Source: Bdellovibrio sp. NC01
GTDB taxonomy: Bacteria > Bdellovibrionota > Bdellovibrionia > Bdellovibrionales > Bdellovibrionaceae
Direction: 5' to 3'
Length of the DNA: 64,000 nt
NCBI RefSeq assembly: GCF_006874625.1
Contig: NZ_CP030034.1
Coordinates: forward strand, 2,170,001 to 2,234,000
Below, piece by piece: positions 52,317-55,560 of this stretch. Both the position numbers and the translations under genes were made by a program. How positions within the stretch are numbered: the first letter of the stretch is position 1; every line of letters starts with the position of its first letter. The notes under the pieces were generated by a model. It was given only the letters and a program-made list of their open reading frames with translations, was not told the DNA's origin and ran no database searches.

Positions 52317-52566
52317 CGCGATTTTTTATGAGCATCGATGAAATTCATTGTTAGAAATTCAGTCGAATGCTCTTTTTTTCTCGCGTTTGCTTGTGAAAAA
52401 TTGCTTCCGTTATAAGCAAAATTCCAAATCTCAACAGGTCTTTGATTTCAAATCTGTAAGAAATGGACGCAAGGTGAGGTTTGTACCATATTAGGACGAT
52501 GGTTTGTGATTTCTGTTAAGATTTTTTGAAAAGTTACTCATAAGGGGACCTCCGGTACTGTATTTT

Positions 52567-52607
52567 GATACTTAGGTATCCAGTATTGAATATTAAGCTA
52601 CCTAGGT
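52567..52607. promoter_or_regulatory. Candidate TetR operator region
   Basis: GATAC-TTAG-GTATC (14-bp dyad) and, 30 bases on centre to centre, the palindrome ACCTAGGT. Both contain TAGGT. They lie 46-87 bases before the TetR start, a usual autoregulatory position. Confidence 0.45.
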
Positions 52608-52653: not shown

Positions 52654-53280
52654 ATGGGCGCAGCTCCTGTTACCCACACGAATCCTGAAAAGAAGTACAT
52701 GCTGAAAATCCCGGTCCAAAAAAGATCTAAAGAGACCGTAGCCAGCATCGTAGAATCATGCGCACGTCTATTAGTGCAAGAGCCTTATCACGCTATTACA
52801 ACTGATAAAATCGCCGAAATGGCGGGTGTAAGTATTGGTTCGCTTTACCAATTCTTTGCGAATAAAGAAGCTATTGTTGCAGCCGTTATCGACGACTTGC
52901 TTCAAAAAGACCTCGCTTACATTGAAGAACACTTGGCGAAACTTGAAGCCACAGACGTTGATTCGAAAGTTCATGCTTTCATCGATATCGGCTTCACACG
53001 CTTCCACGACAACAGACCTTTAAGAACTGCTTTGCAGGGCGTACAAGGCATGTTGGATTACTGGGAAACGCGCAGAGTTTTCTTCGAACACTACCAAAAA
53101 GCAGTGTTAGCACATATGCCAGCATTGCCAGGCAGAGATCGCGACATGGTTGCCTTGTTCATCGTGAGCTCTTTTAACAACATCTTGCAATTGAGCCTTC
53201 TAGGACCTCAATCTCCTGAAAGAGAGCAAGCTGTTAAAAAAGAAGTCTACACTTTGATCAGCCGTTACTTACAACCTTAA
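52654..53280 (+). CDS. TetR-family transcriptional regulator
   Basis: A 208-residue protein. After 22 extra residues, the TetR helix-turn-helix runs over residues about 28-74 (SKETVASIVESCARLL, TTDKIAEMAGVSIGSLYQFF with the SIGSLYQFF end of the recognition helix). The rest is an all-helical ligand domain. AAAGGAGG stands before the ATG. It is 56 bases upstream of the fluoride antiporter gene on the same strand and is probably its regulator, or shares its transcript. The ligand is not known. Confidence 0.9.
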   Translation: MGAAPVTHTNPEKKYMLKIPVQKRSKETVASIVESCARLLVQEPYHAITTDKIAEMAGVSIGSLYQFFANKEAIVAAVIDDLLQKDLAYIEEHLAKLEATDVDSKVHAFIDIGFTRFHDNRPLRTALQGVQGMLDYWETRRVFFEHYQKAVLAHMPALPGRDRDMVALFIVSSFNNILQLSLLGPQSPEREQAVKKEVYTLISRYLQP

Positions 53281-53301
53281 AAAATCCTTGCCTCCTCCAT
53301 A

Positions 53302-53331
53302 CCTCCTCGTATCCTACATAGGGCGAGGAGG
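53302..53331 (+). promoter_or_regulatory. Shine-Dalgarno-sequestering hairpin
   Basis: CCTCCTCG (53302-53309) pairs perfectly with CGAGGAGG (53324-53331), which holds the Shine-Dalgarno of the CLC-F gene. An inner CCT/AGG pair can extend it. A second anti-Shine-Dalgarno, CCTCCTCC at 53291-53298, competes for the same site. This looks like translational control. Confidence 0.6.
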
Positions 53332-53336
53332 ACTTT

Positions 53337-54578
53337 ATTTCAGCATCGTTTCAGAAATCACTCGAACAAGTTCGCATCTTTCCAGAGTTTTTAAAGTGGC
53401 TCTTCATCGCAAGCATCGTCGGCATTCTTGCAGGTTCAGCTTCTGCGGGTTTTCTTTACGCTCTTGATTTCATCACACAGTTTCGCCTGTCGCATTCCTG
53501 GTTGATTTATCTTTTGCCGGTGGGCGGCTTGATCATCGCGTATGTTTATCACTTGTTTGGAAAAAAGGTCGAAGCTGGCAACAATCTGCTGATTGATGAA
53601 ATTCACAATCCACAAGCGGTGGTACCGTTACGAATGGCGCCGTTGGTTTTATTCGGAACTTTAGCGACGCATCTTTTTGGTGGCTCTGCGGGACGCGAAG
53701 GCACGGCCGTCCAAATGGGTGGAAGTCTTGCGGATCAATTAACGAAAATTTTTAAATTAAATTCTGAAGATCGTAAGTTGTTGCTGATGGCCGGTATCGC
53801 CGGTGGTTTTGCCTCGGTTTTTGGAACTCCGCTGGCTGGAGCAATTTTTGGTTTGGAAGTTTTGGCGATCGGCCGCATGCGCACGTCTGGAATTTTGCCA
53901 TGCTTTATTGCCGCCGTTGTTGCCGATCAAGTGTGCCTGGTATGGGGCATTCATCATACACATTATGCAATATCAGAGGTCCCGGCACTTTCGTTCTTTA
54001 ATATTTCATGGGCACTGATTGCTGGCGCTATCTTCGGGCTTTGCGCCTTTTTATTTTCATGGAGCATGCATCGCTCCACAAAAGCATTTAAGAACTTCAT
54101 CAGCTACACTCCCCTGCGCGCGTTCGTCGGTGGTATTCTTGTTTTAGTTTTGGTTGCTATTTGCCAGACAGACCGCTACTTGGGATTAGGCATCCCTGTG
54201 CTTGTTGAAAGTTTTCAGCATTCTGTTCCGAGTTATGATTTCATCTTAAAGTTGATCTTTACGGTTGTGACTTTAAGTGCTGGCTTTAAAGGCGGCGAAG
54301 TTACACCGTTATTTTTTATTGGAGCAACTTTAGGTAATGCACTTGCGTGGATGATTCCATTGCCGGTTTCTTTACTTGCAGGAATGGGCTTTGTTGCCGT
54401 ATTTGCCGGAGCCGCCAACACACCACTGGCGTGCACATTGATGGCGCTAGAGTTATTCGGAAGCGAAGCTGCGGTTTACACAGCCCTTGCATGCGTGATG
54501 AGCTATTTGTTTTCAGGTCATTCAGGAATTTATCATTCACAAAAAATTGAGGTACGTAAGTATGCTGAAAAAAATTAA
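53337..54578 (+). CDS. CLC-F-type fluoride/proton antiporter, ATT start
   Basis: A 413-residue CLC membrane protein. The N-terminal helix LFIASIVGILAGSASAGFLY lies upstream of the first TTG (53502), so the true start must be earlier. A TAG at 53319 closes the frame and no ATG, GTG or TTG lies between; ATT at 53337 follows GAGGAGG by five bases. Filter motifs are GNNL (residues 81-84, where chloride CLCs have GSGIP) and GREGT with gate Glu121 (where they have GREGP). These fit the fluoride-exporting CLC-F branch, asparagine type. It protects against fluoride. Its end overlaps the nitronate monooxygenase start. Confidence 0.82.
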   Translation: MSASFQKSLEQVRIFPEFLKWLFIASIVGILAGSASAGFLYALDFITQFRLSHSWLIYLLPVGGLIIAYVYHLFGKKVEAGNNLLIDEIHNPQAVVPLRMAPLVLFGTLATHLFGGSAGREGTAVQMGGSLADQLTKIFKLNSEDRKLLLMAGIAGGFASVFGTPLAGAIFGLEVLAIGRMRTSGILPCFIAAVVADQVCLVWGIHHTHYAISEVPALSFFNISWALIAGAIFGLCAFLFSWSMHRSTKAFKNFISYTPLRAFVGGILVLVLVAICQTDRYLGLGIPVLVESFQHSVPSYDFILKLIFTVVTLSAGFKGGEVTPLFFIGATLGNALAWMIPLPVSLLAGMGFVAVFAGAANTPLACTLMALELFGSEAAVYTALACVMSYLFSGHSGIYHSQKIEVRKYAEKN

Positions 54579-55560
54579 GACACCTTTTACTGACTTGATG
54601 GGTATCGATTTCCCTATTATCGCGGCACCTATGTTTTTAGTTAGCAACACGGACCTTGTGACTCAAGCGAGTGAGGCTGGCGGTATCGGCACATTCCCCG
54701 CTTTGAATTATCGCCCGCTTGAAAAATATGCGGAAGCTTTAAAGACAATCAAGTCACAAACAAAAAAGCCAATTGGCGTAAACATCATCGTGAACAAAAG
54801 CAATCAACGTCAGAATGACGATCTAAAGATCGCTCTTGATAACGGTGTTGATATGTTTATCACCTCACTAGGCTCTCCGAAAGCGGTGATTCAAGAAGCA
54901 CATAAAAATGGCGCGAAAGTTTTCTGTGACGTCACAAACCTTGAACACGCTTTGAAAGTTCAGGATATGGGCGCTGACGGTGTCATCGCTGTGGGCGCGG
55001 GCGCTGGTGGCCATGCGGGACCGATTTCGCCGTTGGTTTTGATTCCATGGCTTAAAACTCAATTGCAGATTCCAATTTTAGCAGCGGGCGGAATCTCTCA
55101 TGGTTCAATGATTGCCGCGTGTTTGGCGTTAGGTGCTTCGGGTGTTAGCGTTGGTACACGTTTTATCGCCAGCAAAGAAGCACAAGTCGATGAGGCTTAT
55201 AAAAAGGCCATCGTTGATTCCACTCCGGAAGATATCGTGATGACAACGCGTGTGTCAGGAACGCCAGCAGCTGTTATCAATACTCCGTATGTGCAAAAAT
55301 TGGGAACGGATTTACCGTGGGCTTTCAAGATTCTGAAAGAACACAAAATGACAAAAAAATATATGGTGCCGTTGATTCACTTGATGGGCATGAAGTCATT
55401 AGAAGAGGCAGCGATGAAGCCCACTTGGAAAACTGTTTGGACAGCTGGCCAATCTGTGGGCTTAGTCGACGATATCTTAAGCGTTCACGACATCTATCGT
55501 AAACTCATTAACGAGTACGATGACAGCGTGAAAGCTGTATCGCGCCTAGGACTTGAGTGA
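54562..55560 (+). CDS. Nitronate monooxygenase / 2-nitropropane dioxygenase-like
   Basis: A 332-residue FMN-dependent TIM barrel: IAAPMFLVSNTDLVTQASEAGGIG at the N-terminus (shown here in parts: PMFLVSN, SEAGGIGTF), flavin-site GAGAGGHAGPI near residue 150, AAGGISHG and ALGASGVSVGTRFI near 180-205. It oxidises alkyl nitronates or related compounds, or may act as an enoyl reductase relative. I use ATG 54562 with GAGGT before it. It overlaps the CLC-F gene by 17 bases and so is translated with it. Confidence 0.88.
   Translation: MLKKIKTPFTDLMGIDFPIIAAPMFLVSNTDLVTQASEAGGIGTFPALNYRPLEKYAEALKTIKSQTKKPIGVNIIVNKSNQRQNDDLKIALDNGVDMFITSLGSPKAVIQEAHKNGAKVFCDVTNLEHALKVQDMGADGVIAVGAGAGGHAGPISPLVLIPWLKTQLQIPILAAGGISHGSMIAACLALGASGVSVGTRFIASKEAQVDEAYKKAIVDSTPEDIVMTTRVSGTPAAVINTPYVQKLGTDLPWAFKILKEHKMTKKYMVPLIHLMGMKSLEEAAMKPTWKTVWTAGQSVGLVDDILSVHDIYRKLINEYDDSVKAVSRLGLE

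Follow-up and report, generated by a model that had tools for sequence, protein, structure and literature searches.

A conserved hairpin predicted to hide the clc Shine-Dalgarno sequence at the tetR–clc junction of Bdellovibrio, and its possible role in separating clc–fabK from tetR transcription

The window analysed here, a stretch of 64,000 nucleotides from Bdellovibrio sp. NC01, contains a tetR-type gene followed on the same strand by a clc gene and a FabK-like gene. The tetR gene adjoins the element described below on its upstream side in every Bdellovibrio genome examined (n = 24). The features of the locus are as follows:

52654..53280, + strand: tetR-family regulator, 208 aa (ORF; Pfam TetR_N, 2.6e-12; orthologues)
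53288..53293, + strand: putative -35 hexamer TTGCCT (columns conserved over 22 loci, most relatives having TTGC(C/G)T)
53302..53309, + strand: hairpin 5' arm (anti-Shine-Dalgarno arm) CCTCCTCG, within the promoter spacer (folding; pair counts)
53310..53315, + strand: putative -10 hexamer TATCCT (TATNCT, with T-A-T-n-C-T the same in all 22 loci)
53321..53323, + strand: expected clc–fabK transcription start, past the 5' arm (from the position of the -10 hexamer)
53324..53331, + strand: hairpin 3' arm CGAGGAGG, which holds the clc Shine-Dalgarno sequence GAGGAGG (folding; pair counts)
53332..53340, + strand: ACTTTATTT, degraded counterpart of the T-run of relatives (comparison with relatives)
53337..53339, + strand: ATT, most likely clc start codon (no in-frame alternative; alignment; relatives)
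53337..54578, + strand: clcF, CLC-type fluoride/proton antiporter, 413 aa (Pfam; nearest structure; alignment)
54562..55560, + strand: FabK/nitronate monooxygenase-like flavoprotein (ORF; Pfam), directly after the element where clc is absent

The closest solved CLC to the clc product is the CLC-F fluoride/proton antiporter 6D0J (E = 1.8e-63, compared with 3.6e-17 for ClcA), and the GNNL motif of CLC-F is found in the alignment as AGNNLLIDEI; by nearest solved structure, the product is thus a predicted antiporter of the CLC-F type. The beginning of the FabK-like gene overlaps the end of clc by 17 bases (window 54562-54578). The two genes therefore probably belong to one operon, and the overlap suggests that their translation is coupled. 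On the other side of the locus, an inverted repeat ATACT-N9-AGTAT is located 5' of tetR (window 52563-52590) and kept in most relatives; it is likely to be an autoregulatory TetR operator.

The original prediction, whose coordinates (TAG 53319, GAGGAGG, ATT 53337, the stem and CCTCCTCC) all proved correct on recheck, held that clc starts at an ATT codon. A TAG at 53319-53321 closes the clc frame, in which no ATG, GTG or TTG occurs until TTG 53502, while ATT 53337 lies five bases past a strong Shine-Dalgarno sequence, GAGGAGG (53325-53331). The 55 codons from the ATT to 53502 align with a normal CLC N-terminus, and the differences from the nearest relative at codon positions 1, 2 and 3 number 13, 5 and 27, a pattern which indicates that this stretch is very probably translated. 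Initiation at ATT is plausible in this organism, since its own infC gene begins CGGAGGTTTCCCATT, with an ATT start (L044/L064, C1 about 1578000). The infC ATT stands behind CGGAGG or TGGAGG in this genome and in the Bdellovibrio relatives read (L045-L066, a comparison that left out L050 and L067 and in which the isoleucine of L047 was seen from the translation only). The clc start resembles the AUU start of infC in being an ATT behind a good Shine-Dalgarno sequence, the difference being that clc lies outside the initiation machinery.

The relatives of clc start with TTG (n = 10) or, in L009, with GTG (n = 1), so ATT is no conserved regulatory feature of clc; only the nearest relative, L004, has an ATT at the same place. 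L004 also contains an in-frame ATG four codons 5' of its ATT, inside the stem, and its ATT may therefore not be the start. As ATT is rare as a start codon and most relatives use TTG, one might suppose that the start of clc was lost by mutation or by a sequencing error, and that translation proceeds from the internal TTG 53502 or not at all. We consider this rather improbable: the open reading frame is intact and conserved upstream of 53502, the infC gene of the same genome begins with ATT, and the presence of ATT in the closest relative makes a sequencing error in an ATG or a TTG unlikely; an error creating or destroying an ATG had been a caveat of the original prediction. Initiation of clc at ATT 53337 is thus likely, as had been proposed.

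The Shine-Dalgarno sequence in front of this ATT is contained in a hairpin, CCTCCTCG and CGAGGAGG forming a perfect 8-bp stem. The 16S 3'-end sequence TGGATCACCTCCTTT was found in the same genome. The 53-nt leader folds with a minimum free energy of -18.4 kcal/mol (z = -3.1), which was equalled by 0 of 200 shuffled sequences; with longer flanks, the values are -19.2 kcal/mol and z = -2.3. As judged from sequence and folding, the hairpin pairs the downstream Shine-Dalgarno sequence on an RNA initiated upstream, and it possesses the GC-rich stem of an intrinsic terminator. The stem begins 20 nt beyond the tetR stop codon in the window and 18-30 nt beyond it in the clc-bearing loci. The idea that CCTCCTCC (53291-53298) competes as an alternative anti-Shine-Dalgarno partner was dropped: this pairing is not conserved, and the first bases of the segment belong to the promoter-like TTGC(C/G)T.

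CLC-F orthologues were looked for in 24 Bdellovibrio genomes. A clc gene follows the same tetR in 12 genomes besides the window, with the hairpin kept at the junction. In a MAFFT alignment of ten junctions, assessed with shuffle controls, 97.8% of the cells are paired, three of the nine pairs display double changes, and the covariation score was reached by 0 of 500 shuffles. Across 22 loci, four C-G pairs never vary, the outer pair occurs as CG, TA or GC, and two inner pairs change from TA to CG; these counts are based on individual folds and thus lean towards pairing. Examples of stems are CCTCCCCG/CGGGGAGG (L009) and CCCCCTCG/CGAGGGGG (L013), and the loop varies in both length and sequence. 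A covariance model built from the ten aligned junctions found a single strong copy per genome in 22 of the 24 genomes, each 3' of the same tetR, and when run on 141 genomes of the order it matched nothing beyond the genus. The hairpin in the window exceeds chance, its match having an E-value of 1.5e-10 in its own genome, but the window sequence is among the ten from which the model was built, whose E-values are favoured for this reason; the nine copies at loci devoid of clc, as well as L004 and L008, lay outside the model.

The two genomes unmatched by the model, G009 and G022, carry tetR followed by the FabK-like gene, and a hairpin without T-run buries the Shine-Dalgarno sequence at the junction. 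The G022 hairpin is a diverged form, while the G009 stem (L171; TGACCTCAGA/TCTGAGGTCA) bears no sequence relationship to the stems of the other species and still pairs the Shine-Dalgarno sequence. Together with the 22 model copies, these two folds bring the number of genomes with such a hairpin at the junction to 24 out of 24. What is predicted at this junction is a conserved, covarying structure that hides the Shine-Dalgarno sequence. Both this sequence and the arm pairing with it are constrained, so the conservation could partly reflect the Shine-Dalgarno sequence and the promoter alone. The hidden Shine-Dalgarno sequence of the original prediction is borne out by the recurrence of the hairpin, with compensatory changes, in 22 of the 24 genomes, and the comparison of the leader in relatives that it had called for shows the pairing kept rather than lost.

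The element is not specific to clc, because the same hairpin is found at loci lacking this gene. In nine genomes lacking clc at the site, a copy lies between tetR and the FabK/nitronate monooxygenase-like gene; with G009 and G022, clc is absent from the site in 11 genomes, where the FabK-like gene begins, with ATG. A tetR tree, which is poorly resolved, calls for clc to have been gained or lost three times at the site. In one locus without clc (L158, 1361-1406), the hairpin is separated from the ATG of the FabK-like gene by a TTTTTTTG stub together with another Shine-Dalgarno sequence, perhaps the scar of a lost clc.

Most copies of the element also resemble a terminator, since the stem ends in a T-run, with A's on its 5' side. 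In eight of the nine copies without clc, the T-run is directly followed by the ATG of the FabK-like gene, so a T-run is compatible with an ATG start. The T-run is reduced to ACTTTATTT in the window, whose T-score of 1.27 is the lowest of the 13 clc loci (2.6-5.2 for the others); the run of L165 is short (CCTTTT), and there is none in G009 or G022. Given the decay in the window, the barrier that remains in this species is probably, for the most part, sequestration. The tetR–clc site was not listed in a scan for consensus promoters and terminators.

The 5' arm is spanned by a conserved promoter-like motif, TTGC(C/G)T-N16-TATNCT. The pattern TTGCNT-N16-TATNCT is expected 0.11 times per 64 kb, and the 16-nt spacing is fixed in 20 of the 22 loci, the -35 box being shifted in L011 and L012; the distance from the -10 box to the Shine-Dalgarno sequence ranges from 4 to 31 nt. 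TATNCT is invariant even where its bases are unpaired, which the stem alone does not explain, and for this reason we read it as part of a promoter. The boxes match TTGACA/TATAAT, the E. coli consensus, poorly, and no promoter was recognised within the G009 hairpin. Mapped promoters of the Bdellovibrio attack phase are mostly of the FliA type (PMC3627812); the tetR–clc site does not match them. When the accessibility of the Shine-Dalgarno sequence was modelled, its mean over the 22 loci was 0.002 on the read-through RNA versus 0.29 on the RNA from the site's own promoter, with no useful exposure on the latter in L005 and L021.

Taken together, these features point to a probable arrangement in which an internal promoter drives clc–fabK and read-through arriving from tetR meets a hairpin that silences it, terminates it or does both, so that the junction would be a compact module making clc–fabK independent of tetR transcription. 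A polymerase arriving from tetR would transcribe the complete hairpin; in most species, the T-run would end tetR transcription there, and in any read-through message the clc (or fabK) Shine-Dalgarno sequence would be locked in the stem. The 5' arm lies within the stretch occupied by the site's own putative promoter, TTGCCT-N16-TATCCT, whose transcripts would begin either at the 3' arm or within the loop. Because such transcripts would lack the 5' arm, their Shine-Dalgarno sequence would be free and close to the 5' end. The conserved position, the covarying stem, the conserved promoter-like boxes and the sharing of the element by clc and fabK are all observed. The transcription start, the termination, the block of translation and the use of ATT are the parts that we infer. 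The original prediction thus stands as regards the ATT and the hidden Shine-Dalgarno sequence, whereas its regulatory reading gives way to the insulation model; it had overlooked the T-run of relatives, the promoter-like boxes over the 5' arm and the occurrence of the element at loci without clc.

Could the hairpin simply be the intrinsic terminator of tetR, with the Shine-Dalgarno sequence placed in its 3' arm out of thrift and no selection for sequestration? The strong stem flanked by A's and a T-run in most relatives, and a position 18-30 nt past the tetR stop at clc-bearing loci, which is a usual place for a terminator, lend this reading some weight. Yet we hold it to be unlikely, as the window, G009 and G022 retain a strong hairpin that buries the Shine-Dalgarno sequence without a T-run, and in G009 pairing of this sequence is maintained by a wholly different stem. 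The persistence of the hairpin in these three cases favours sequestration as the selected function, with termination presumably added in most species. That the inverted repeat is instead a DNA operator for TetR or another regulator, and no RNA element, is scarcely credible: although the repeat spans the putative clc–fabK promoter beside the tetR gene, the spacing of its arms is highly variable, the stem of one genome is unrelated in sequence, and tetR has a separate conserved inverted repeat, ATACT-N9-AGTAT, on its 5' side. A search for the conserved form of the latter at the clc promoter returned no copy. The operator reading was rejected on the variable arm distance and on this absence.

Hairpins that switch access to a Shine-Dalgarno sequence are common in bacteria, and the very stable closed state modelled here would also suit a regulated switch on a tetR–clc–fabK message, in which a protein, a small RNA or an ion opens the read-through RNA. 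Such a switch appears very unlikely to us in view of the variable length and sequence of the loop, the lack of a conserved alternative pairing, the mere 18-30 nt that separate the stem from the tetR stop, and the use of one element for genes of different function. Moreover, an Rfam search gave no riboswitch match in the leader of the window or of the tetR-linked relatives. Control by fluoride, one of the possibilities raised originally, is unsupported: the window has no RF01734 aptamer upstream of clc, the 20 nt available leave no room for one, and the same hairpin precedes the FabK-like gene. Nor do we retain control by ribosomes completing tetR, which had also been put forward, since a stem located 18-30 nt beyond the tetR stop is probably out of reach of the terminating ribosome. 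A hidden ribosome site does not by itself imply a ligand switch.

The insulating arrangement that we favour has precedents in phage T4: for gene e (lysozyme) and I-TevI, a hairpin conceals the ribosome site on the long transcripts coming from upstream, and a promoter in the 5' strand of this hairpin yields short transcripts that lack it (PMC3014915, PMC2988022). The present junction shares with the T4 genes a Shine-Dalgarno sequence hidden on the upstream RNA, as predicted from sequence and folding; a putative promoter across the 5' arm, with boxes conserved at a fixed spacing but poorly matching the consensus, would add to the likeness. They differ in that our case concerns a junction in the chromosome of a predatory bacterium, that its hairpin is also terminator-like in most species and that there is no sign of a temporal switch. 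In IS10/Tn10, similarly, the transposase start is concealed by the folding back of incoming messages, but not in the message from the internal promoter; the tetR–clc junction, by contrast, is no mobile element. In the literature searched, we found the T4 precedents and no description of the tetR–clc junction. Our observations suggest that a conserved junction in a bacterial chromosome makes use of a regulatory arrangement familiar from phage T4.

A more far-reaching version, namely a genus-wide module of about 50 bp that superposes promoter, intrinsic terminator, Shine-Dalgarno sequence and start codon from adjacent genes, into which clcF was repeatedly inserted or from which it was lost, with regulated opening of the hairpin and an IF3-sensitive ATT in this species, seems to us decidedly doubtful. 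Natural variants separate the possible parts: loci differ in whether they retain the T-run and whether they contain clc, the stem is rewritten in one case, and the start is ATG, TTG, GTG or ATT, so termination, sequestration and start-codon strength can be tested separately on existing sequences. ATT-type starts at such junctions are easily overlooked by annotation.

In a scan of genome contigs using the alignment of clcF, the distant homologues returned (L068-L147, 55-62% identity) came from Burkholderiales, Bacteroidota and others, and none from Bdellovibrio. Like the junction hairpin, the fluoride riboswitch (RF01734) found with CLC-F genes is a cis-acting RNA in front of clcF; unlike it, this aptamer is absent from the window and the whole tetR-linked clade, while being present in other members of the family. 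RF01734 riboswitches precede clcF homologues in L015 (1397-1469), L036 (1406-1477), L037 (1394-1465) and L035 (2717-2792, - strand).
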